Assembly: GCF_001306915.1 (NCBI RefSeq) | Contig: NZ_LJTC01000009.1 | Span: 84,620-148,619, forward strand | Direction of reading: 5' to 3' | Source of the DNA: Pseudoalteromonas lipolytica | GTDB taxonomy: Bacteria; Pseudomonadota; Gammaproteobacteria; Enterobacterales; Alteromonadaceae | Length of the DNA stretch: 64,000 nt | In this document: positions 15,569 through 40,489 of the stretch, in pieces | Numbering within the stretch: the stretch's first letter is position 1 | Layout: each line of letters starts with the position of its first letter | Translations under genes and position numbers: made by a program | The notes under the pieces: model-generated | What the model saw: the letters and a program-made list of their open reading frames with translations, nothing else | The model's database searches: none | What the model was told of the DNA's origin: nothing

Positions 15569-15644
15569 TGGCGTCCCCAAGGGGATTCGAACCCCTGTTA
15601 CCGCCGTGAAAGGGCGGTGTCCTAGGCCTCTAGACGATGGGGAC
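15569..15644 (-). tRNA. tRNA-Glu(UUC) copy 1
   Basis: 76 bases on the minus strand with encoded CCA. The acceptor GTCCCCA pairs with TGGGGAC, the anticodon loop CCTTTCACG contains UUC, and the T-arm is GGGGTTCGAATCCCC. It is the promoter-distal intact copy of the leftward array. Confidence 0.98.
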
Positions 15645-15811
15645 GCAGAAATTGGTTTGCAAATCACTGATTTGCTATTTCTGCGTAAGATGAGACCGAG
15701 CCTGCGAGGCGAATGGCCTTAGCTTAAACAGAAAGTTTCTGTGTCACTAGGACAACTGAATAGTTAGACTCGATTCAGACGAGCTTTTAATAACACATCA
15801 CTTAAAGTAAG

Positions 15812-15882
15812 TGGCTTCAGCAAGAGATTCGTACTCTTGATAACGTCGTGCATAGATTGCGCGGTGTTCACCGCCCCACTAC
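15812..15882 (-). pseudogene. tRNA-Glu-like pseudo-unit 2
   Basis: Same 71-base unit as the others, but the 3' acceptor strand is altered (GTGGCTTCAGC on the plus strand instead of GTGGCGTCCCC), making it the most degenerate at the CCA end. Confidence 0.75.
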
Positions 15883-15902
15883 ACATAACCTACTTAGATA
15901 AG

Positions 15903-15978
15903 TGGCGTCCCCAAGGGGATTCGAACCCCTGTTACCGCCGTGAAAGGGCGGTGTCCTAGGCCTCTAGACGATGGGGAC
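15903..15978 (-). tRNA. tRNA-Glu(UUC) copy 2
   Basis: Identical to copy 1 over 76 bases, including CCA. The interval to copy 1 is about 90 bases longer than the usual 245-base period. Confidence 0.98.
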
Positions 15979-16055
15979 ACAAAATGTGTCACTAGGACAA
16001 CTGAATAGTTAGACTCGATTCAGACGAGCTTTAATAACACAGCACTTTTAGAAAG

Positions 16056-16126
16056 TGGCGTCCCCAAGAGATTCGTACTCTTGATAACGTCGTGCATAGA
16101 TTGCGCGGTGTTCACCGCCCCACTAC
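16056..16126 (-). pseudogene. tRNA-Glu-like pseudo-unit 3
   Basis: 71-base unit with an intact CAAGAGTACGAATCTCTTGG T-arm and GGGGACGCCA end, and a 5' half unlike tRNA-Glu. Confidence 0.75.
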
Positions 16127-16146
16127 ACTTAACCGACTTAGATAAG

Positions 16147-16222
16147 TGGCGTCCCCAAGGGGATTCGAACCCCTGTTACCGCCGTGAAAGGGCGGTGTCC
16201 TAGGCCTCTAGACGATGGGGAC
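16147..16222 (-). tRNA. tRNA-Glu(UUC) copy 3
   Basis: 76 bases, identical to the other Glu copies, followed on the transcript by the hairpin CCACTTATCTAAGT. Confidence 0.98.
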
Positions 16223-16300
16223 ACAAAATGTGTCACTAGGACAACTGAATAGTTAGACTCGATTCAGACGAGCTTTTAATAACACAACACTTAAAGTAAG

Positions 16301-16371
16301 TGGCGTCCCCAAGAGATTCGTACTCTTGATAACGTCGTGCATAGATTGCGCGGTGTTCACCGCCCCACTAC
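16301..16371 (-). pseudogene. tRNA-Glu-like pseudo-unit 4
   Basis: 71-base unit matching units 3, 5 and 6; T-arm-like 3' half with CCA, no matching acceptor 5' strand. Confidence 0.75.
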
Positions 16372-16391
16372 ACATAACCTACTTGAATAAG

Positions 16392-16467
16392 TGGCGTCCC
16401 CAAGGGGATTCGAACCCCTGTTACCGCCGTGAAAGGGCGGTGTCCTAGGCCTCTAGACGATGGGGAC
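16392..16467 (-). tRNA. tRNA-Glu(UUC) copy 4
   Basis: 76 bases, identical to the other Glu copies, 245 bases from its neighbours on each side. Confidence 0.98.
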
Positions 16468-16545
16468 ACATGATGTGTCACTAGGACAACTGAATAGTTA
16501 AACTCGATTCAGACGAGCTATTAATAACACAGCACTTAAAGTAAG

Positions 16546-16616
16546 TGGCGTCCCCAAGAGATTCGTACTCTTGATAACGTCGTGCATAGATTGCGCGGTG
16601 TTCACCGCCCCACTAC
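16546..16616 (-). pseudogene. tRNA-Glu-like pseudo-unit 5
   Basis: 71-base unit matching units 3, 4 and 6; it retains the 3' 28 bases of a tRNA, with the T-stem AAGAG/CTCTT. Confidence 0.75.
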
Positions 16617-16636
16617 ACATAACCTACTTAGATAAG

Positions 16637-16712
16637 TGGCGTCCCCAAGGGGATTCGAACCCCTGTTACCGCCGTGAAAGGGCGGTGTCCTAGGCCTCTA
16701 GACGATGGGGAC
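16637..16712 (-). tRNA. tRNA-Glu(UUC) copy 5
   Basis: 76 bases, identical to the other Glu copies, with encoded CCA. Confidence 0.98.
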
Positions 16713-16790
16713 ACAAAATGTGTCACTAGGACAACTGAATAGTTAGACTCGATTCAGACGAGCTTTTAATAACACATCACTTAAAGTAAG

Positions 16791-16861
16791 TGGCGTCCCC
16801 AAGAGATTCGTACTCTTGATAACGTCGTGCATAGATTGCGCGGTGTTCACCGCCCCACTAC
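16791..16861 (-). pseudogene. tRNA-Glu-like pseudo-unit 6
   Basis: 71-base unit, the most promoter-proximal of the six. None lies between Glu copies 6 and 7. Confidence 0.75.
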
Positions 16862-16881
16862 ACATAACCTACTTAAATAAG

Positions 16882-16957
16882 TGGCGTCCCCAAGGGGATT
16901 CGAACCCCTGTTACCGCCGTGAAAGGGCGGTGTCCTAGGCCTCTAGACGATGGGGAC
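16882..16957 (-). tRNA. tRNA-Glu(UUC) copy 6
   Basis: 76 bases, identical to the other Glu copies. The spacer on its 5' side differs from the repeated spacer and marks the edge of the amplified block. Confidence 0.98.
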
Positions 16958-17087
16958 ACAGTGTGTGTCACTAGGACATTAAATGATAGTTTTACTCATA
17001 TCGGAGTTAAGGTTACTAAAATAGCATGTAAGTACTCGAGACTAACATATTTATTTTCTTGGCAATTGCTCACTTACTTAAAGTAAG

Positions 17088-17163
17088 TGGCGTCCCCAAG
17101 GGGATTCGAACCCCTGTTACCGCCGTGAAAGGGCGGTGTCCTAGGCCTCTAGACGATGGGGAC
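17088..17163 (-). tRNA. tRNA-Glu(UUC) copy 7
   Basis: 76 bases, first Glu gene after tRNA-Ala in transcription order. It is the likely ancestral copy because the Ala-Glu pair has a spacer unlike the repeated ones. Confidence 0.98.
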
Positions 17164-17202
17164 GCAGAAAACTGCAACCCTAGGACAAACACTATGCAAA
17201 TC

Positions 17203-17278
17203 TGGTGGAGCTATGCGGGATCGAACCGCAGACCTCTTCGCTGCCAGCGAAGCGCTCTCCCAGCTGAGCTATAGCCCC
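17203..17278 (-). tRNA. tRNA-Ala(GGC)
   Basis: 76 bases with encoded CCA. Acceptor GGGGCTA pairs with TAGCTCC, the D-arm is AGCTCAGCTGGGAGAGC, and the anticodon loop CTGGCAG gives GGC. It is the first gene of the leftward tRNA operon. Confidence 0.98.
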
Positions 17279-17334
17279 GACTTGCATACACACCACCAAT
17301 TAATGTTGGTTGTGTATCGCTGAGTGCGGGGCGC

Positions 17335-17363
17335 ATTCTATGCAGCCCCCCAAATAAAGTCAA
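17335..17363 (-). promoter_or_regulatory. Promoter of the tRNA-Ala/Glu operon
   Basis: Read leftward: -35 TTGACT (17363-17358), a 17-base spacer, -10 TAGAAT (17340-17335), then the GC-rich discriminator GCGCCCCGC. Such discriminators are typical of stringently controlled stable-RNA promoters. Confidence 0.88.
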
Positions 17364-17853
17364 CAGTTTTTTATCTAAGTTTATTTAAATGATTTAAATT
17401 TCAACAAGCTGACTAAATATCAATCCGTTGCGGAGGTATTTTATACAAAGTGCTATCAAATTAGTTATTTTGGGCTAATTTCATTGCTGGTTTGTTATCA
17501 AAGGCTCTTTGCTTTTTTAATTTACTCCCTTAAAAAGGTATACATTTATATGCAAAATAAAATTCATTATTTAAAGCTTTAAATAAAACGACTTCACCCT
17601 ACCCTGCTTTGTTTTTAATAGTGCTAAGTAGAGTGCAATTAACTGATGCAAATTTATTGATATGAAAAACCGTTTTAAAGATTTGCTGTATTCATTTCAT
17701 TTTAGAATGATTTACCTAGGTCATAGAGCTATAGATCAAGCTCTGAATATAAGCTTATGAATGTAAATTGCATATTTGTTCGCCAAAAAATGCTTAAATG
17801 CCATGTCATTGTTTATAAAAGCTGCATCTAACACATTTTTACTCATTCAAGTG
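17364..17853. other. AT-rich gap between divergent tRNA operons
   Basis: No convincing gene or structured element was seen in these 490 bases. The stretch is AT-rich, which may help both flanking stable-RNA promoters as upstream (UP-element-like) sequence. Confidence 0.5.
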
Positions 17854-17881
17854 TTGACACATTTACAACTCTATCTATAAT
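17854..17881 (+). promoter_or_regulatory. Promoter of the tRNA-Val operon
   Basis: -35 TTGACA (17854-17859), a 16-base spacer, -10 TATAAT (17876-17881), both perfect consensus, followed by the discriminator AGCGCCCC. This is as strong a sigma-70 promoter as one finds, fitting a seven-gene tRNA operon. Confidence 0.92.
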
Positions 17882-17921
17882 AGCGCCCCACAACAACGCA
17901 GCAATGAGTTGTTTTAGATAT

Positions 17922-17997
17922 GGGTCGTTAGCTCAGTTGGGAGAGCATCGCCCTTACAAGGCGAGGGTCACTGGTTCAAGTCCAGTACGACCCACCA
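17922..17997 (+). tRNA. tRNA-Val(UAC) copy 1
   Basis: 76 bases with CCA. GGGTCGT pairs with ACGACCC, the anticodon loop CTTACAA gives UAC. The trailer TTATTCCCTAATGGTG can pair back with the CACCATTA at the tRNA 3' end. Confidence 0.98.
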
Positions 17998-18033
17998 TTA
18001 TTCCCTAATGGTGTTCATATCTAAATTCTTAAT

Positions 18034-18109
18034 GGGTCGTTAGCTCAGTTGGGAGAGCATCGCCCTTACAAGGCGAGGGTCACTGGTTCAAGTCCAGTAC
18101 GACCCACCA
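18034..18109 (+). tRNA. tRNA-Val(UAC) copy 2
   Basis: Identical 76-base copy with encoded CCA. Confidence 0.98.
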
Positions 18110-18135
18110 TTAAGAAAACTTGCTGTATGTAATAT

Positions 18136-18211
18136 GGGTCGTTAGCTCAGTTGGGAGAGCATCGCCCTTACAAGGCGAGGGTCACTGGTTCAAGTCCAGT
18201 ACGACCCACCA
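18136..18211 (+). tRNA. tRNA-Val(UAC) copy 3
   Basis: Identical 76-base copy; trailer TTTTTTAAAGTGGTG can fold back on the CACCA end. Confidence 0.98.
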
Positions 18212-18248
18212 TTTTTTAAAGTGGTGTTCATATTACAAAAATCTAAAT

Positions 18249-18324
18249 GGGTCGTTAGCTCAGTTGGGAGAGCATCGCCCTTACAAGGCGAGGGTCACTG
18301 GTTCAAGTCCAGTACGACCCACCA
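18249..18324 (+). tRNA. tRNA-Val(UAC) copy 4
   Basis: Identical 76-base copy; the trailer contains GATGGTG complementary to the CACCA(T) end. Confidence 0.98.
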
Positions 18325-18367
18325 TTAAATAAACTTTGATGGTGTTTTCATTTAGATTATTCTTCGC

Positions 18368-18443
18368 GGGTCGTTAGCTCAGTTGGGAGAGCATCGCCCT
18401 TACAAGGCGAGGGTCACTGGTTCAAGTCCAGTACGACCCACCA
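18368..18443 (+). tRNA. tRNA-Val(UAC) copy 5
   Basis: Identical 76-base copy; the trailer contains AAATGGTAGCG complementary to part of the 3' end. Confidence 0.98.
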
Positions 18444-18495
18444 TTTACTTTTTAAAGCAAAAAGCTAAAAATGGTAGCGAAGAAAAAGATTATAT

Positions 18496-18571
18496 GGGTC
18501 GTTAGCTCAGTTGGGAGAGCATCGCCCTTACAAGGCGAGGGTCACTGGTTCAAGTCCAGTACGACCCACCA
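18496..18571 (+). tRNA. tRNA-Val(UAC) copy 6
   Basis: Identical 76-base copy, followed directly by a degenerate Val-like fragment. Confidence 0.98.
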
Positions 18572-18584
18572 TTACTTTTTGGAG

Positions 18585-18647
18585 CAAAGAGCATCGCAAC
18601 TCTTTACAACGAAAAGGCTCGGTGGTTAAGTTCAGTAAGACCAACCA
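18585..18647 (+). pseudogene. Degenerate tRNA-Val fragment 1
   Basis: Recognisable from AGAGCATCGC through TTTACAA to GGTGGTTAAGTTCAGTAAGACCAACCA, but with insertions in the anticodon arm, a broken acceptor strand and no 5' end. Not a functional tRNA. Confidence 0.75.
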
Positions 18648-18672
18648 TTTAATCTTAAAAAAATTTATATGT

Positions 18673-18748
18673 GGGTCGTTAGCTCAGTTGGGAGAGCATC
18701 GCCCTTACAAGGCGAGGGTCACTGGTTCAAGTCCAGTACGACCCACCA
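18673..18748 (+). tRNA. tRNA-Val(UAC) copy 7
   Basis: Identical 76-base copy, last intact gene of the rightward operon. The trailer ACATATAAAT resembles the leader TATATGTG and may pair with it. Confidence 0.98.
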
Positions 18749-18856: not shown

Positions 18857-18870
18857 CATATAACAATCAC

Positions 18871-18988
18871 TTCTAATATCTAACTTCTAATATCTAACTT
18901 CTAATATCTAACTTCTAATATCTAACTTCTAATATCTAACTTCTAATATCTAACTTCTAATATCTAACTTCTAATATCTAACTTCTAA
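18871..18988. repeat. 14-bp tandem repeat, eight copies
   Basis: The unit TTCTAATATCTAAC is repeated without change eight times (18871-18982) and followed by a partial TTCTAA. It lies between the tRNA-Val operon and the receiver gene. No spacers, so not a CRISPR array. Confidence 0.95.
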
Positions 18989-33091: not shown

Positions 33092-33538
33092 TTAACTAAT
33101 TTTCGTCAGCCACTCATTTAACCATGGCTCAGTAACAGGCCAAGGCTCAAAATCTTCACAGGCATCAATTTCTAAACGATGACCAACAGGTTTTGCCTGT
33201 AAATCGCGAAACAGCTCATCAAAACTGCGACCTGCACCACAAAACGTATCGCCATAACTACGATCGCCCATAGCAATAATGCCGTATTGCTTGCCTGTTA
33301 ACAGTGGGAATTGATCATTTAATTGGCTATATAAAGCGATTAAGTTATCAGGAATATCGCCCTGACCCGTCGTTGAAGTGATCACTAAAATATGTGACGC
33401 AGCCAGCATGTCATCAACCGTGGCATTTTCAACTAATTGCGCTTGATGCTCAGACTTTTCAATGACTTCAATAACTTGTTCGCTTAAACGCTCAGCACCG
33501 CCGTAAACACTGCCGACAAAAATACTAATGGTTGCCAT
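33092..33538 (-). CDS. Flavodoxin-like protein YqcA/MioC type
   Basis: A 148-residue short-chain flavodoxin domain. FMN-binding loops are visible as SVYGGAE near the start, TSTTGQGDIPDN in the middle and GDRSYGDTFCGAG later. The ATG at 33538 gives the usual MATISIFVGS start; a frame ten residues longer exists but begins inside truC. It forms yqcC-truC-yqcA with its two upstream neighbours, as in E. coli, and overlaps truC by 14 bases. Confidence 0.88.
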   Translation of the reverse strand: MATISIFVGSVYGGAERLSEQVIEVIEKSEHQAQLVENATVDDMLAASHILVITSTTGQGDIPDNLIALYSQLNDQFPLLTGKQYGIIAMGDRSYGDTFCGAGRSFDELFRDLQAKPVGHRLEIDACEDFEPWPVTEPWLNEWLTKIS

Positions 33539-34307
33539 AATAATCCTTTTCTTCTGTTGGCCAGCCAAGTTGCTGGCAAATCGTTAACATTGCATCGCCT
33601 AAAGGCGCTCTAATTGTTATTGGTTGCTTGCTATAAGGGTGCACAAACTTTAATTCAGAGGCAAATAACATTAACCGACGAAGCTGAAAATGCTCTCTAA
33701 AAAATTGATTATGCTGATTATCACCATGATTTACATCACCAATAATTGGCAATGATAAATGTTTTAAATGACGGCGTATTTGATGTTTGCGGCCAGTTTT
33801 TGGAAAACACTCCACCAACGAGTAACGAACTGTTGGGTATTTACCAATTGGAATAGGCAAGCTTGCTTGGTGCAAACAATGAAATTGCGTTTGTGCTTCT
33901 TGCGGTGCTTTATTTTGATCAGCAAACTTGTCGGCGATTTTATCAAGCTCTTCTTTTAAAGGTTTATCTAAGAAGATTGATTCGTTTAAAAAGCCTCTTA
34001 CTAAAGCTAAATAACGCTTTTCAATTTGCCCATCAATAAATAACTGATTCATATCACGGGCTGCTTCTGAACTTAACGCAAACAGTAATACGCCTGAGGT
34101 TGGTCTATCTAACCGATGTACAGGAAACACGTGTTGACCAATTTGGTCACGCAGCATTTGCATCGCAAATTGGGTTTCGTGTTTGTCTAAAAACGAACGG
34201 TGAACCAATAAACCAGATGGTTTATCAATCGCAATGTAATTTTCATCGCGGTACAGAATCGTTAACTCATCAAATTGTGGCTTAACAATCTCTTGCATCT
34301 TAGTCAT
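33525..34307 (-). CDS. truC: tRNA pseudouridine(65) synthase
   Basis: RluA-family synthase, 260 residues. It shows NKPSG-like IDKPSGLLVHRSFLD, the catalytic Asp in HRLDRPTSGVLLFAL, EELDKIADKFADQNK and KTGRKHQIRRHLKHL, closely matching E. coli TruC, which modifies U65 of certain tRNAs. Start is uncertain: GTG 34310, ATG 34307 or ATG 34298. The yqcC stop overlaps the 5' end in either case. Confidence 0.94.
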   Translation of the reverse strand: MTKMQEIVKPQFDELTILYRDENYIAIDKPSGLLVHRSFLDKHETQFAMQMLRDQIGQHVFPVHRLDRPTSGVLLFALSSEAARDMNQLFIDGQIEKRYLALVRGFLNESIFLDKPLKEELDKIADKFADQNKAPQEAQTQFHCLHQASLPIPIGKYPTVRYSLVECFPKTGRKHQIRRHLKHLSLPIIGDVNHGDNQHNQFFREHFQLRRLMLFASELKFVHPYSKQPITIRAPLGDAMLTICQQLGWPTEEKDYYGNH

Positions 34308-34614
34308 CACTCAAAAGTTGATCGAGTTTTTGTAAAACGTTAATCACATCATTACCGCCGCTGTGTTGTGCCAGCATCATTTCAGCCATAGGCGCAATTG
34401 CAAAATTACGGGGTAAAGGCTGGGCATGTGCAATGAGGGTATGCATTTTTTCAAGAAAAACAAATTGCAGCCATTGCTCAAAAGCCATGGTGTCATGACA
34501 AAACGGTACACTAGAATTGAGTGCACTTGGGTCAATCGGTGTTGTTTGCCAAAGTGAATGGCGTTGTAATGTGGATTCTAATTCGCGCAGCAGCGCCAAA
34601 GTCTGTTGATGCAT
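34300..34614 (-). CDS. yqcC: YqcC family protein
   Basis: A 104-residue helical protein of unknown function (MHQQTLALLRELESTLQRHSLW...FCHDTMAFEQWLQFVFLEKMHTLI). The ATG at 34614 gives the standard family start; the longer open frame runs into the divergent gene at 34721. It heads the yqcC-truC-yqcA operon, the same neighbours that flank csrB in E. coli. Confidence 0.9.
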   Translation of the reverse strand: MHQQTLALLRELESTLQRHSLWQTTPIDPSALNSSVPFCHDTMAFEQWLQFVFLEKMHTLIAHAQPLPRNFAIAPMAEMMLAQHSGGNDVINVLQKLDQLLSDD

Positions 34615-34720
34615 TGTAAAACTCTTAATACCTTTGTGCTTAGTATACCCTGTTCCAAGGCGCCATGGTATGGCGTATAATTCGCGGCTGATATAGATTA
34701 AATACGGTAATTGAGATTTT

Positions 34721-35749
34721 ATGACTGAGCAGATCGCCACCTTAGGGCAACTTCTGGATGCAGCAGGTACCACTTGGCGTGCCTTCGATATTGGCAGACA
34801 CATCACGAAATTAGACAAAAAACAATTTCTTGCCATTGAAGAAACAAAAATCCCTTACCCTTACCCGCTTGCAGGTCATGCTTGGCTTGCTATTCAATTT
34901 TGGGATGTAAAAGCGTCTAAAGAACCTTATGTATGGTTTTTAAAATTCCCACTAGATGAGCAAAGCCGTCTTGTAAGCGCAAGCCGTGATCACTTCGCAA
35001 ATATGGTAATTGAAGCGCTTGGTACAGAAATTACCGGTGAAAATGCCGAAGGCAAATTAGACAACAACCCGTATGTATTTACGCCAAACGCCAACAAGCT
35101 AGCAGCATTTAATGCACAGGTTAAATGTTTACTTAAACAAAGTGCTTCACAGTATTACGAATATGCGCAGCTGTATTTCTCAGGCAAACTAGGATTTGAT
35201 AATTGGCAAAGTGTTGCAGTACAAGGTATTGCAGACTTTGCGATGCGTTTAGATAACGACAACAATTTAGCAAATCTACAAGCCGCTTGGGGGCAATTAC
35301 CAGTCGAAGTATTACAGCCGCTAAGTGCAATGCTTGAACATGTTGCAATCGAACCCGTGTTTGCAGAGCAATTGTTAGCCTATGGTTTAAACGCCATAGA
35401 AAATAAAGACGACATCGCCCTTGTAGCAGCCCTCAGAAGCTTATCAAAAACACCAGCGCAAGGCTTAACTGCACAACTGGTTGATGCTGTATTACGCTCT
35501 GATATGAACACCCAGTCAGATGTACTATTAACGATTGCAGGGCGTTGTTTTAGCACGCTTGAAGACCCAGAACGCTTACATGTGTTTATGGATTGCTGTG
35601 CACACCACACTGAAATTGAACAACTGTTTGTGAGTATTTTCACCGATTTAGTTGCAATTCCTAGTATTCGCCCTCACCTACTAGGTTTATTAAGAAAAGA
35701 AAATCGTAGCGAAACACTCGCTCGAGCAATTGGAAGGTTATTCTCGTAA
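34721..35749 (+). CDS. DUF3549 family protein
   Basis: A 342-residue soluble protein that starts MTEQIATLGQLLDAAGTTWRAFDIGRHITKLDKKQFLAIEE and contains PYPYPLAGHAWLAIQFW. The C-terminal half is all-helical and repeat-like (ALRSLSKTPAQGLTAQLVDAVLRS). I recognise it as DUF3549, usually found next to a DUF3301 gene as here. Function unknown. It is divergent from yqcC. Confidence 0.82.
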   Translation: MTEQIATLGQLLDAAGTTWRAFDIGRHITKLDKKQFLAIEETKIPYPYPLAGHAWLAIQFWDVKASKEPYVWFLKFPLDEQSRLVSASRDHFANMVIEALGTEITGENAEGKLDNNPYVFTPNANKLAAFNAQVKCLLKQSASQYYEYAQLYFSGKLGFDNWQSVAVQGIADFAMRLDNDNNLANLQAAWGQLPVEVLQPLSAMLEHVAIEPVFAEQLLAYGLNAIENKDDIALVAALRSLSKTPAQGLTAQLVDAVLRSDMNTQSDVLLTIAGRCFSTLEDPERLHVFMDCCAHHTEIEQLFVSIFTDLVAIPSIRPHLLGLLRKENRSETLARAIGRLFS

Positions 35750-36049
35750 ATGGCAGGCTTGTGGACACTTATCATCATTGGCAGCATCATCTACTTTTTT
35801 TGGTTAAACAGAAAAGTAGCCGAAGCAGCTAATCTTCATGCACAAAGACAAATTGAGCAATTAAATGTGCAATTGATGAGTGTTGCTTGCAATAAACGCC
35901 GACTTGGTATTTTAAAAAGCGGCAAACCAGGTATCAAAAGCGAATTTATTTTTGAGTTTTCAAGTGATGGACAAAACGTGTATCAAGGCGTTTTGATCAT
36001 GGAAAATGAATTACTTAAAAGTGTCGTAATACCGCCACATAAGATTTAA
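35750..36049 (+). CDS. DUF3301 family protein
   Basis: 99 residues with one N-terminal membrane segment (MAGLWTLIIIGSIIYFFWLNRK) and a small C-terminal domain (IFEFSSDGQNVYQGVLIMENELLKSVVIPPHKI). It begins at the base after the DUF3549 stop. Function unknown; it is probably a membrane-anchored partner of the DUF3549 protein. Confidence 0.8.
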   Translation: MAGLWTLIIIGSIIYFFWLNRKVAEAANLHAQRQIEQLNVQLMSVACNKRRLGILKSGKPGIKSEFIFEFSSDGQNVYQGVLIMENELLKSVVIPPHKI

Positions 36050-36122
36050 GTTGCGAGTTGCGAGTTGCGAGTTGCGAGTTGCGAGTTGCGAGTTGCGAGT
36101 TGCGAGTTGCGAGTTGCGAGTT
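36050..36122. repeat. 7-bp tandem repeat (GTTGCGA), ten copies
   Basis: GTTGCGA is repeated ten times without change from the base after the DUF3301 stop codon, plus a final GTT. It lies between that gene and the terminator of the leftward csrB-like RNA. Confidence 0.96.
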
Positions 36123-36159: not shown

Positions 36160-36193
36160 CAGAAAGAACTAAGGCGTAGCTAATAGCCACGCC
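36160..36193 (-). terminator. Terminator of the csrB-like RNA
   Basis: Leftward GGCGTGGCT-ATT-AGCTACGCC (36193-36173), nine pairs with one G-U, followed by TTAGTTCTTTCT. Confidence 0.8.
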
Positions 36194-36566
36194 CCAATCT
36201 TGCTACTTCCATGATTAAGTATCCTTACTTATGCCGAAGCTGCCTTTTTATCTTTCCCCTGAACGGGTATACATCCGATACACCCACCATGCTACTTCAT
36301 GTAACATTTAACACATCCTAGTGCCGTCCTCTTGCCGTCAATGGCTATCCACTTCGTTTTCCAAACGCTCCTTTAGCTTCCTGCTAAAATCATCCTTTGG
36401 TCAGTCCTTTTCAATCGCTCCGCGATTGTACTGCATCCTGGCAGCGTCCTCGTTCTTCCTTGCTTCCCTAGCTCTTGTCCCTTTGCTTCCTGCTAAGCAT
36501 CTTGCTTTGTTGCCATAATCCTAATCCTTGGCATCAGTTCATTCATTGAACCTGCGTCTTCTTGAC
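36160..36566 (-). ncRNA. csrB: CsrB-family regulatory RNA (CsrA-sequestering)
   Basis: Read leftward, this gene-free stretch of about 405 bases contains 21 GGA motifs, many in hairpin loops as required for CsrA binding: CTGC-CAGGAT-GCAG (36444-36431), TTTAGC-AGGAA-GCTAAA (36388-36372), GCTT-AGCAGG-AAGC (36498-36485), CAC-TAGGAT-GTG (36323-36312) and AAGTA-AGGA-TACTT (36230-36217). It ends in a GC-rich terminator and has a -10 candidate TAAACT at 36579-36574. In E. coli csrB sits beside yqcC and syd; here yqcC, truC and yqcA lie on one side and syd and queF on the other. The RNA should bind several CsrA dimers and relieve CsrA control of translation. The exact 5' end is inferred. Confidence 0.88.
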
Positions 36567-36573
36567 ATGATTA

Positions 36574-36579
36574 AGTTTA
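36574..36579 (-). promoter_or_regulatory. Candidate -10 of the csrB-like RNA
   Basis: Leftward TAAACT, placing the first transcribed base near 36566 (GTCAAGAAG). No good -35 is present at the right distance, which fits a promoter needing an activator such as UvrY/GacA. Confidence 0.45.
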
Positions 36580-36724
36580 GAGAAATGCGGATATCTTGGT
36601 AGGCATAAAAAGTAATTTTTTCTAAGTCACAAAAATGACAAAAACAATAAATCCTTTAAAATCATTACAATAAGCAATTATAGGTACAAATTTAAAGGCA
36701 TTAAACTGATAAAACGCACAGCAA

Positions 36725-36742
36725 TGTGAGACTTATCGCACA
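36725..36742. promoter_or_regulatory. Candidate GacA/UvrY box upstream of csrB
   Basis: TGTGAGACTTATCGCACA matches TGTAAG-N6-CTTACA at 9 of 12 fixed positions. It is centred about 165 bases upstream of the inferred csrB start, similar to the distance known for such boxes. It is part of a longer palindrome (GCAATGTG at 36721-36728, CACATTGC at 36739-36746) just past the GNAT stop codon and might instead be that gene's terminator hairpin. Confidence 0.45.
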
Positions 36743-36767
36743 TTGCTATTTCCAAAACGTCCTTTGC

Positions 36768-37415
36768 TTAATTTGCAGCTTTGAACATCAAGTCACCTTC
36801 AACTTGGTTAAAGCTCAAGGCTTTGAACACCTCAAACCCTTCAGAGCTAAAGAATTCACGCTGTTCAGAGCGGGTAACAAATACAGCTAAACCACCTGCT
36901 TGATTGCTTGACTCAACTAAATCATCAAGCCCTCGTAGCAGATATCTGCCTAAACCTTGCCCCTGAAAATGTGGGTCAACGGCTATAAAGGCTAAAAACA
37001 GATAATGGCCTTTGCTTGAAAGCGCTTCACGAATAGTGCGCTCTTTTTCTATAAGCTGATTGGTTTGCAAGTAACCCGCACTGAGCATCAGTTTTAAGCG
37101 CCAATGCCAGTATCGCTCAGCTTGTAGTTCACTTGCCGAATCAAATACACAGGCAATGGCTTTTAATCTACTTTGTGAGTAAAGACCTATTAGAGGCTGT
37201 TTTTCTTGCCAGAAACTTGCTAGCTCTTCACGTACTAAAGCACGTAATTTAGTTTCATATTTACTTGGGTTATCTTGTTGAAAACCTAATACATTCTGAA
37301 GAACGGGATCATCATGATAGGCTTGATAAATAAGGCTTGCGGCAGTGCTGATATCTTCAGCACTCAGGTATTGCACACTTAAGGTTTCGGGTTCAGCAAC
37401 TGTCAAAATACTCAT
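36768..37415 (-). CDS. GNAT-family N-acetyltransferase
   Basis: A 215-residue protein with the acetyl-CoA-binding motif A as FLAFIAVDPHFQGQGLGRYLLRGLDDL (residues about 140-166) and motif B around LAVFVTRSEQREFFSSEGFEVF. The substrate is unknown. Single leftward gene between csrB and a DUF2789 gene. Confidence 0.88.
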   Translation of the reverse strand: MSILTVAEPETLSVQYLSAEDISTAASLIYQAYHDDPVLQNVLGFQQDNPSKYETKLRALVREELASFWQEKQPLIGLYSQSRLKAIACVFDSASELQAERYWHWRLKLMLSAGYLQTNQLIEKERTIREALSSKGHYLFLAFIAVDPHFQGQGLGRYLLRGLDDLVESSNQAGGLAVFVTRSEQREFFSSEGFEVFKALSFNQVEGDLMFKAAN

Positions 37416-37793: not shown

Positions 37794-37948
37794 CGCCTGC
37801 GAGCTAATTAACAAGCTTAAATAACATTCTTTTAGCTCGTTAATTAGGAAAGTAATTTCACTCCACATCTATTATTGCTACCATACGCGCGCACTGCAGC
37901 CCATATACTGCGGTGCTTTTTAGTCTTTATAAAAGAGTTTATACAAAA

Positions 37949-38215
37949 ATGAATGCCGTTGTATTTGATGCAATTAAAACCCTTCTTGATGAAGGTAAAA
38001 CCCCAACAGTTGCCTTAACTAAAAGTAAGTTAACCCAACCTATGCCGATGCCTGTGATCATCGCTGCGGTTAGCCAATATAAAAACAACCCGGATTCAAT
38101 TAATAATTTCATCAATAACCCGTCAAATGAACAACTGAGTACACCAAAAGAAAGCCAATTGGATCGTATTGAAGCTAAATTAGATAGGTTATTAGCACTG
38201 CTTGAGAAAAAATAA
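37949..38215 (+). CDS. Small hypothetical protein with coiled-coil C-terminus
   Basis: 88 residues (MNAVVFDAIKTLLDEGKTPTVALTKSKL...PKESQLDRIEAKLDRLLALLEKK). The C-terminal 20 residues form a short Leu-zipper-like helix, and the N-terminal half may be a helical DNA- or protein-binding module. The ATG at 37949 is preferred over 37913 because it gives the conserved-looking start. The stop overlaps the next ATG by one base, so it is co-translated with the DUF2310 gene. Family not recognised. Confidence 0.72.
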   Translation: MNAVVFDAIKTLLDEGKTPTVALTKSKLTQPMPMPVIIAAVSQYKNNPDSINNFINNPSNEQLSTPKESQLDRIEAKLDRLLALLEKK

Positions 38216-38988
38216 TGTTTGTTGTCGATCTGACTTTTGATTGCTACCAAGATACTACCCTAGAGCTTGCTGAGCAGGCGATAAACCGCCTAGTGAATGC
38301 GCTTCGTTTTAACGGCCAAATAATTGGTGATGAATTTCCAACGGTTTTAAAAGATGGATTTTTCATTACTCGTGTAATGTGCCCAACCGAAGATGCGATG
38401 CATCCGCTCAACCATAGCCCGTTTGTAAAACATAGCATTGAGCAATTAAACACTGCAGGCTTACTGGCACCAAAAGTTAAAGTGGTCGGCCAAGACATTC
38501 ACTCAAATGGCGCAGACATGTGTCATGATCCGTCGTGCTATATTTTGTATACCACGTACGTGCACACCTGTAGCCCGCTTTATTGTGGTGATGACTTTTT
38601 GCCTGTGCCGTTATTTCGCATTCCAGCCATTGCCAATGGCGATTACAAAACACTCATTAAATGGCAAGAAGACTGGCAAGCGTGCGATCAAATTCAGATC
38701 AATGGTGCAACCCGTTGTGAATTTCCTGCGCTTGAAGAGCTAACTAGCATCAAGAGTGACTTATACCGCCGTGGTCGTGATATCACGAAACGTATTAGTT
38801 TTCTAACCAAGAAGCCGGTTTATTACTATTTATACCGTGTAGGCGGCGTTGATAAAGAGTCAGAGCTTAAACGTCGTTGCCCAAGCTGCGATGGCGAATG
38901 GAAATTACCAGAGCCATGGTTTGGCTTATTTGATTTTCGGTGCGAGCCCTGTGGCATTGTTTCGAATATTTCGTGGGACTTTCAATAA
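38215..38988 (+). CDS. DUF2310 zinc-ribbon protein
   Basis: A 257-residue protein of the DUF2310 family, often labelled as a zinc-ribbon protein linked to phosphonate metabolism, although that role is not proven. The N-terminal 190 residues are mixed alpha/beta with several Cys (DMCHDPSCYILYTTYVHTCSPLYCGDDF). The C-terminal ribbon RRCPSCDGEW...FRCEPCGIVS has two CxxC knuckles. A strong terminator follows. Confidence 0.85.
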   Translation: MFVVDLTFDCYQDTTLELAEQAINRLVNALRFNGQIIGDEFPTVLKDGFFITRVMCPTEDAMHPLNHSPFVKHSIEQLNTAGLLAPKVKVVGQDIHSNGADMCHDPSCYILYTTYVHTCSPLYCGDDFLPVPLFRIPAIANGDYKTLIKWQEDWQACDQIQINGATRCEFPALEELTSIKSDLYRRGRDITKRISFLTKKPVYYYLYRVGGVDKESELKRRCPSCDGEWKLPEPWFGLFDFRCEPCGIVSNISWDFQ

Positions 38989-39044: not shown

Positions 39045-39584
39045 TTACACCGTTACTTTGTCTAAAAACTCACTGATGCTTTTCGCTAGCACATGATGTG
39101 GTTTTTTACCCACATACTCTAAGCAAACCTCACCGCTTTCGACTAATACAGTGATCAGCAGATCATCTTGCTCTGTAAGACCAATAAATACGGTTTCTGG
39201 CTGCTTTAGCTTGCGCTTCATTAACACGTGACCGGTAATATTTTGCTGTAAGCGGCTAAAATCATCTTCATTCCATGCTTGTAACAGTTCAATGTGATGA
39301 TCATCAACACTCAATAATAAATTACCCGCATAGACATGACCAAACAATGGGCTTAAATCTTCAGGAAACGATAATTCGAGTGCCTTGGCTAAGTCTTCTA
39401 AACTGCCAGCAGGTTGTTGTGGGGTTGCACACCACTGAATAAGCCCCTGCTCATCGACTTCACCCTGCTCACAGGGACTTGGCCATGCTGTATCATGTTC
39501 AATAACAGGAAGCTTTCCTGTGCGTTCGAGGCATTTTTCACTAAATGCTTGATGTAACTTATCTAGTTTTGTAGAAACAGACAT
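39045..39584 (-). CDS. syd: SecY-interacting protein Syd
   Basis: A 179-residue cytosolic protein that binds SecY and helps quality control of the translocon (E. coli 181 residues). The pattern is typical: MSVSTKLDKLHQAFSEKCLERTGKLPVIEHDTAWPSPCEQG, then PLFGHVYAGNLLLSVDDHHIELLQAWNEDDFSRLQQNITGHVLMKRKLKQPETVFIG. ATG 39584 is the family start; a longer frame runs into queF. It is divergent from queF with 59 bases between the starts. Confidence 0.95.
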   Translation of the reverse strand: MSVSTKLDKLHQAFSEKCLERTGKLPVIEHDTAWPSPCEQGEVDEQGLIQWCATPQQPAGSLEDLAKALELSFPEDLSPLFGHVYAGNLLLSVDDHHIELLQAWNEDDFSRLQQNITGHVLMKRKLKQPETVFIGLTEQDDLLITVLVESGEVCLEYVGKKPHHVLAKSISEFLDKVTV

Positions 39585-39643
39585 ACTGCGAAACTCATTG
39601 GCTTTAGGTATAATGCCGCCATTGTAACTACAAAAGTGTAAAG

Positions 39644-40489
39644 ATGACAGATTACAGCAACTCACCCGAACTGAAAAACAGTGTTCTTGGTAAAAGCACA
39701 GAGTATGTAGATACCTACACACCCAGTTTACTGTTTCCTATTGCCCGTAAATTAAACCGTGATGCATTAGGTGTTAGCGAAGATAACTTACCGTTTAAAG
39801 GCCAAGATATTTGGACTGGCTATGAATTATCGTGGCTAAATAGCAAGGGTAAGCCAATGGTCGCTGTGGCAACGTTTGTATTTCCTTGTCAAAGCAGTCA
39901 CATCATTGAGTCAAAGTCATTCAAATTGTACCTAAACAGCTTTAATCAAACACGTTTTGAGACGCCGGATGACGTACATCAAGCACTGAGCAAAGACTTA
40001 TCCGATGCGGTAAATGCACCGGTGATCGTTACTTTATACCAAGCTGATGATTTCAATTGTTTGCCATTTTCAGCGTTACCGGGCGAATGTATTGATGATC
40101 TGGATATCGAAATCACTAGCTATGATATTGATGCCAGCTCACTTCGCCATAATGGTGATGAGATTGTCTCAGAAACCCTACATAGTCACTTACTAAAATC
40201 GAACTGTTTGATCACCTCACAGCCTGATTGGGCGAGTGTGATTATTCGTTATAAAGGCCAAGCGATTTGCCATGAAGCCTTATTAAAATATTTAATTTCG
40301 TTTAGAACTCACAACGAATTTCATGAACAATGTGTGGAGCGTATTTACTGCGATTTAATGCAGCAGTTAAACCTCGAAGAGCTTGAAGTGTATGCCCGTT
40401 ATACACGCCGTGGCGGTTTAGATATCAACCCTTATCGCTCAACGAATCAAGATGAAACACCTTTCAAGGTAAAAATTAATCGCCAATAA
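39644..40489 (+). CDS. queF: NADPH-dependent 7-cyano-7-deazaguanine reductase
   Basis: Queuosine pathway enzyme reducing preQ0 to preQ1. The 281 residues are the long two-domain form (E. coli 282). The catalytic Cys188 is in [11 protein letters not shown], with the partner Asp at PDW and substrate-binding [15 protein letters not shown] and [14 protein letters not shown]. Syd beside QueF is the E. coli arrangement. Confidence 0.97.

Follow-up and report, generated by a model that had tools for sequence, protein, structure and literature searches.

In Gammaproteobacteria, switches of lifestyle are set by Csr RNAs. The gene-free stretch between a DUF3301 gene and a GNAT acetyltransferase gene of Pseudoalteromonas lipolytica raises the question of whether it encodes such an RNA and whether that RNA and E. 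coli csrB are the same gene. A preliminary description of the window, meaning the whole 64 kb stretch of DNA analyzed here, had proposed a CsrB-type RNA at this position. GGA hairpins, covariation, synteny across the genus and an upstream box support this identity, for a kind of RNA that has already been published as Pf1. Sequence comparison makes it nearly certain that the window RNA is the Pseudoalteromonas CsrB-type RNA known as Pf1, for which we infer the mechanism of the family and a csrB ancestry. New here are its presence in 60 of 60 sampled genomes of the genus, the fixed footprint of its box, the match to the E. coli gene order and the order-wide address; the kind of RNA was known. 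No open reading frame of at least 80 amino acids lies between 36050 and 36767. The features of the locus are collected in Table 1.

Table 1. Features of the csrB-like locus and its surroundings, in window coordinates.
Feature	Position	Strand	Remarks
Flavodoxin gene, taken as yqcA	33092-33568	-	From family and position
truC	33525-34310	-	Pfam/NCBIfam and TruC search
yqcC (DUF446)	34300-34617	-	ORF as listed begins upstream, at 34836; start codon picked by eye
DUF3549 gene	34721-35749	+	Pfam/NCBIfam
DUF3301 gene	35750-36049	+	Downstream neighbor, convergent
CsrB-type small RNA, Pf1 counterpart	36163-36567	-	~405 nt, inferred 5' end; GGA, folding, covariation, genus synteny
Intrinsic terminator, GC-rich hairpin and interrupted U-tract	36163-36193	-	Helix 10, 100% of cells paired, one compensatory pair
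Hairpin TAAGTA-AGGA-TACTTA	36216-36231	-	Helix 9, compensatory change
Long hairpin, CGGAT loop	36262-36288	-	Helix 8, nearly invariant
Hairpin GGCAC-TAGGAT-GTGTT	36310-36325	-	Helix 6, without compensatory change
Hairpin CGTTT-GGA-AAACG	36355-36367	-	Loop-GGA search; outside the covariation-counted helices
Hairpin TTTTAGC-AGGAA-GCTAAAG	36371-36389	-	Loop-GGA search; outside the covariation-counted helices
Hairpin CAATCGC-GGA-GCGATTG	36412-36428	-	Helix 5, two pairs with compensatory changes
Hairpin GCTGC-CAGGAT-GCAGT, AGGA in loop	36430-36445	-	Helix 4, compensatory change
Candidate -10 element TAAACT, just before inferred start	36574-36579	-	By eye, upstream alignment of 18 close relatives
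GacA/UvrY-type palindrome TGTGCGATAAGTCTCACA	36725-36742		~160 bases upstream of RNA; same site in 56/60 genus loci
GNAT acetyltransferase gene	36768-37415	-	Upstream neighbor, same strand; adjoins in 53/60 genus genomes
100-codon frame without Pfam match	37913-38215	+	Position conserved
DUF2310 gene	38215-38988	+	Pfam/NCBIfam
syd (SecY-interacting protein)	39045-39722	-	Pfam/NCBIfam
queF	39644-40489	+	Pfam/NCBIfam

Several repeats were observed in the window. In the gap between terminator and DUF3301, the 7-base unit AGTTGCG is repeated perfectly in tandem 10.6 times (36049-36122), an array that differs in close relatives. Two neighboring tRNA arrays at 15572-18745 lie on opposite strands, eight tRNA genes on minus and seven on plus, and the scores within an array are the same or almost so; a 245-base tandem unit contains much of the first array, and a perfect 14-base tandem array of 8.6 copies spans 18869-18988.

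Pf1 was described as a Csr RNA of Pseudoalteromonas fuliginea BSW20308 with a GacA box, together with two further Csr RNAs, Pf2 and Pf3, the latter with nine GGA motifs; Pf1 itself is credited with 21 GGA in the 2023 paper and 25 in the 2025 paper. Its promoters are working ones, Pf1 fragments drove GFP, the RNA affects glycogen in E. coli, which was taken as CsrA titration, and a knockout exists (PMC9927453; PMC11882849). At the same address, the locus of P. fuliginea KMM 216 matches the published Pf1 box in all 18 positions and has 25 GGA per 400 nt. The window RNA aligns with the KMM 216 RNA over 201 nt at 73.6% and, at the terminator, over 39 nt at 84.6%. Based on this box identity, the GGA number and the shared pieces at the same address, we call the window RNA the positional counterpart of Pf1, with the KMM 216 copy standing in for Pf1 in the alignment. 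Both RNAs belong to the same genus and are alike in GGA number (21 here; 21 or 25 in Pf1) and in the upstream GacA box. The KMM 216 copy, presumed to be Pf1, differs in that only pieces of it align with the window RNA, which may therefore escape published similarity searches. Aln1a-c of Alteromonas macleodii, a marine relative, likewise display A(N)GGA hairpins, are proposed as CsrA sponges and are reported as very highly expressed, but unlike the window RNA they are three RNAs from one 404-bp intergenic region (PMC5864184).

A similarity search in the published work placed Pf1 in 252 of 672 strains (37.5%) (PMC9927453; PMC11882849). We sampled 60 Pseudoalteromonas genomes, one per species and including that of the window, and found TruC in all 60. 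Beside DUF3301 (0 to 3.3 kb), 56 of them carry 15-39 GGA per 400 bases on the truC strand, with GNAT on the opposite side in 49 and no recognized gene there in seven. In the remaining four, the GGA stretch directly follows GNAT (26, 31, 26 and 30 GGA). These four had appeared to lack the RNA, one owing to a contig end and three with the GNAT side apart from truC, and all proved GGA-dense beside GNAT. A GGA-dense stretch is therefore present in this neighborhood in 60/60 sampled genomes, a count that differs in sampling from the published 252/672, with one genome per species here and strains there. Within a separate named set, a GGA-dense RNA lies near DUF3549 in 29 of 31 Pseudoalteromonas loci; looking near DUF3549 only, none was seen in P. 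sp. MSK9-3 (L202) and P. aurantia S3788 (L206), nor in two loci of other genera (L203, L204). The DUF3549 product of the window is 100% identical in P. sp. 0303 and 99% in P. arabiensis. The gap between RNA and DUF3301, taken from the densest 400 bases, ranges from 0 to 3.3 kb across genus loci, and in three genomes the distance from GNAT to truC is ~14 kb (G059), ~9 kb (G057) and ~1.9 Mb (G041). The region after the terminator is a recurrent insertion or breakpoint spot.

In E. coli MG1655, yqcA-truC-yqcC-csrB-syd share a strand, opposite to that of queF. The order and orientation of these genes in the window match this neighborhood, whose genes, with extra ones between them, the preliminary description had already recognized. 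Compared with E. coli, yqcC is separated from the RNA by the added DUF3549-DUF3301, and the interval from the RNA to syd additionally contains GNAT, the 100-codon frame and DUF2310. The two loci are further alike in GGA hairpins and terminator, and E. coli csrB has a UvrY-type upstream site; they differ sharply on the Rfam CsrB model RF00018, with 380 bits for E. coli csrB and 25 for the window RNA.

We extended the comparison to the order. Of 109 genomes, 92 yielded yqcC, that of the window included, and 80 of the other 91 yqcC loci were surveyed, omitting short contigs and surplus members of families already taken. A rule of at least 12 GGA, at most two TCC and a difference of at least 11 within 300 bases was passed by 32/80 loci on the yqcC strand and by 0/80 on the other strand. 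Four of the passing loci were dropped by hand, two with the stretch ~5 and ~2 kb from yqcC and no other anchor (L160, L162), one with the GGA stretch inside the syd frame (L096) and one with it inside the yqcA frame (L133). A GGA-rich RNA at the site thus remains in 28/80 loci, belonging to 9 of 22 families of the order (f1, 3/5; f5, 1/1; f6, 3/4; f10, 1/1; f15, 5/5; f16, 4/4; f18, 3/3; f20, 4/5; f21, 4/4). No GGA-rich RNA was found at the site in the other 52 loci. Families f2 (6 loci), f9 (5), f11 (3), f12 (4) and f25 (5) have none at the site, most of them keeping the genes; none was seen either in f3 (5), f7 (3), f8 (6), f14 (3), f19 (2), f23 (1), f26 (1) and f27 (4), families in which hardly any anchor genes, if any, were recognized apart from yqcC and truC. 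Two f8 loci (L112, L128) with 10 GGA and no TCC just before yqcC fall below the rule and are counted as lacking. All six f2 loci (L100, L108, L116, L120, L170, L173) have recognized queF-to-truC genes and no RNA at the site; in f2 the RNA would have been lost or moved from the site. A plasmid search with YqcC gave no match. We recognized no earlier paper on this order-wide csrB synteny, of which a prior mention is possible. One source treats csrB synteny within vibrios, with 'syd' absent from the main text (PMC6262261), another contains csrB, syd and yqcC (PMC2515195), and Pseudoalteromonas is unmentioned in the relevant passages of a third (PMC5568370).

The gathering cut-off of the covariance model RF00018 is 71 bits, and the window RNA reaches 25.2 bits (E 9.6e-5 over 1.3 kb), so that by Rfam's own threshold it falls outside RF00018. 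With the same sequence length given, the presumed Pf1 locus of KMM 216 obtained 27.3 bits, a second RNA of the P. lipolytica genome (see below) a sub-threshold 35.1 bits, and E. coli csrB 380.4 bits. The check proposed in the preliminary description is hence a weak positive that lies far below the cut-off and cannot settle the matter; a search of the whole genome with the model yielded no match, as expected of a sub-threshold relative. The RF00018 model is too narrow for Pseudoalteromonas. When 17 loci chosen from the 28 with an RNA at the site were given to the model, six scored above the cut-off at the address (L097, L105, L121, L109 twice, L129 and L095). Seven of the 11 sub-cut-off loci were examined below the cut-off at E 0.1, which revealed matches in L137, L139, L153 and L165, more than one each in the first three. 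No match was obtained in this permissive mode for L106, L098 and L146; the outcome there depends on the amount of sequence given, and these blanks are not firm because the second RNA (L018) was also blank, yet scored 35.1 bits when given alone. Tandem matches, two or three, occur at the address in L109, L137, L139 and L153, sub-cut-off in the last three. Overall, scores at the address descend from 329 (L097) over 213, 206, 137, 109, 91, 90, 70, 60, 53 and 32 to 26 bits, with the window RNA at 25, a falling series that in our reading reflects a single ancestral gene whose sequence turns over rapidly.

An RNA of CsrB-type function might also have arisen separately in this lineage, its address shared with E. 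coli csrB by coincidence. The authors of the Pf1 work thought a separate (de novo) origin possible, and no similarity of Pf1 to E. coli csrB in sequence was reported (PMC9927453; PMC11882849). The weak RF00018 match and the 52/80 loci of the order without an RNA at the address are in line with such an origin. Against it stand the same interval, strand and flanking genes in E. coli, the RNA at the address in nine families and the graded CsrB scores. We consider a separate origin rather improbable and favor one ancestral csrB because of the synteny match and the RNA at the site in 28/80 loci of 9/22 families. Pf1-type RNAs and E. coli csrB are therefore probably one gene by descent, with a syd to yqcC-truC address that stayed fixed throughout the depth of the order and a sequence that has turned over nearly completely.

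Does this gene have a transcription start of its own? The palindrome upstream of the window RNA shows three mismatches to TGTAAGN6CTTACA and is among the weaker copies in the genus. In 56/60 loci of the genus, a palindrome precedes the densest GGA window by 60-330 nt. Of the four loci without it, three are truncated by the end of their contig, which leaves L074 as the one genuine miss by this rule. The search expression was loosened after inspection of copies and is thus fitted, and the background measured with the identical expression in the rest of the same loci amounts to 0.006 matches per 270 nt. The distance from the palindrome to a 5' motif of the RNA was measurable in 31 of the 56 loci, and 24 of these show 175-178 nt. 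The near-match to a distant GacA/UvrY box, first noticed in the window and recommended for comparison among relatives, is accordingly a fixed footprint kept at its site. Candidates for the cognate regulators are encoded in the same genome, which yields one CsrA homolog match, a best UvrY match 69% identical over 212 of 218 residues, and a full-length best BarA match (41% over 914 of 918).

These upstream data bear on the possibility that processing of the GNAT mRNA releases its 3' end as this RNA, which would then have no transcription of its own. The GNAT gene lies on the same strand with its stop ~200 bases upstream of the RNA and is a neighbor in 53/60 genus genomes, and a simple scan reports no minus-strand promoter at the RNA. 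The palindrome at a near-constant distance, the lack of an adjoining GNAT gene at E. coli csrB and the Pf1 fragments that drove GFP argue against this origin, which we regard as very unlikely compared with an independently transcribed Pf1-type RNA.

The composition and structure of the RNA fit the predicted CsrA binding. The count of 21 GGA in an RNA of ~405 bases was reproduced at 36163-36567 on the minus strand, with motifs spread across 36527-36210. Within the 64 kb window, GGA average 2.0 per 405 nt, the plus-strand maximum is nine per 405 nt, and every one of the 400 densest minus-strand windows comes from the RNA locus (maximum 22). The previously stated chance expectation of about six depends on the null model: the purine-rich composition of the RNA itself gives 12-13 (dinucleotide shuffles, 12.2 +/- 2.3; mononucleotide shuffles, mean 13.1), and the excess is nevertheless real, with 21 reached in 0/1000 dinucleotide and 5/1000 mononucleotide shuffles. 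Placement of GGA within small hairpins was borne out likewise. Possible stems with four or more pairs enclose ten GGA in their loops, compared with 3.4 +/- 1.7 in shuffles (0/300 with as many), a count that allows G-T pairs and includes some overlapping, mutually exclusive stems. The folding z-score of the RNA is -4.4 against 100 shuffles.

Conservation of the hairpins was analyzed in an alignment of 18 rows, comprising the window RNA and 17 named relatives; 19 loci covered the whole RNA, of which L177 was omitted. Ten helices are paired in 99.3% of cells. Both sides are changed in 12 of 58 pairs, a number found in 0/500 shuffles, and both-side-changed cells number 71 compared with 26 in shuffles and at most eight with partners slid. 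Since the tested structure is the consensus fold of the same alignment, the slid control is biased in its favor. Further pair types were not above shuffles in these rows (29 versus 31.1). Compensatory changes hold the stems of the RNA in relatives. The terminator had been called good, which holds for its strong GC-rich stem of eight pairs, conserved in the alignment, and less so for its U-tract, which is interrupted here and only fair, given that the automatic scan reports no terminator. An unbroken T run follows the stem in 9/18 rows and TTCTTT in 8/18, the window included; one row is cut short. That the GGA richness is mere purine-rich sequence in an RNA without CsrA function would fit the 12-13 GGA expected from composition and the sub-threshold RF00018 score, but we dismiss it as next to impossible in view of the dinucleotide shuffles, the roughly threefold excess of loop GGA, the stems held by compensatory changes and the GGA-dense stretch kept in all 60 genomes.

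The P. lipolytica genome harbors a second GGA-rich RNA on another contig (L018:862-1343, minus strand; G000:C1 near 48005), with 26 GGA and an upstream palindrome, adjoining a periplasmic-binding-protein-like gene, as judged by eye. Like the window RNA, it is GGA-rich with a palindrome upstream and a sub-threshold CsrB match; unlike it, it has other neighbor genes. The two RNAs share one 19-nt match (E 0.002), the rest being at chance level. The second RNA has counterparts with 17-26 GGA per 400 bases in 5/5 further genomes examined, among them P. fuliginea KMM 216 (L241), and this RNA may be Pf2. The claim that the locus is the CsrA control hub of the organism is therefore too strong, as the same genome carries at least one more Csr-type RNA with its own box. 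In a 2006 paper, Csr RNAs were reportedly predicted from an upstream site and GGA count. Here, a generic GacA pattern with two mismatches proved too loose, with 621 matches versus 367 for the reversed control; among the matches listed, 1 of 19 loci was GGA-dense (L018). A pattern fitted to known sites gave 27 matches versus 75 for its reversed control, and 2 of 21 loci had a GGA-rich RNA, namely L018 and that of the window. No third, Pf3-like RNA was found via the loci of either pattern in this genome.

By analogy with the family, BarA/UvrY would switch transcription of the RNA on, several CsrA dimers would be bound by the GGAs in its loops, and their titration would free CsrA-controlled mRNAs. 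For Pf1, published experiments partly support this mechanism (PMC9927453; PMC11882849), and the window RNA would most likely soak up CsrA, like Pf1. The RNA and E. coli csrB would derive from the same ancestral gene, whose address between syd and yqcC was kept while the sequence drifted.

The RNA itself is expected biology; the useful additions are the order-wide address and the 60/60 spread. Csr RNAs are missed by gene annotation and, in Pseudoalteromonas, by Rfam's model. The address data correct the published figure for how widely Pf1 occurs in the genus and speak against the proposed de novo origin. If Pf1-type RNAs and csrB are one gene by descent, the RNA would be universal or nearly so in Pseudoalteromonas, and not confined to about a third of genomes, families without an RNA at the site would mark real losses or moves, and hidden or 'missing' Csr RNAs would be findable by address, not by sequence.
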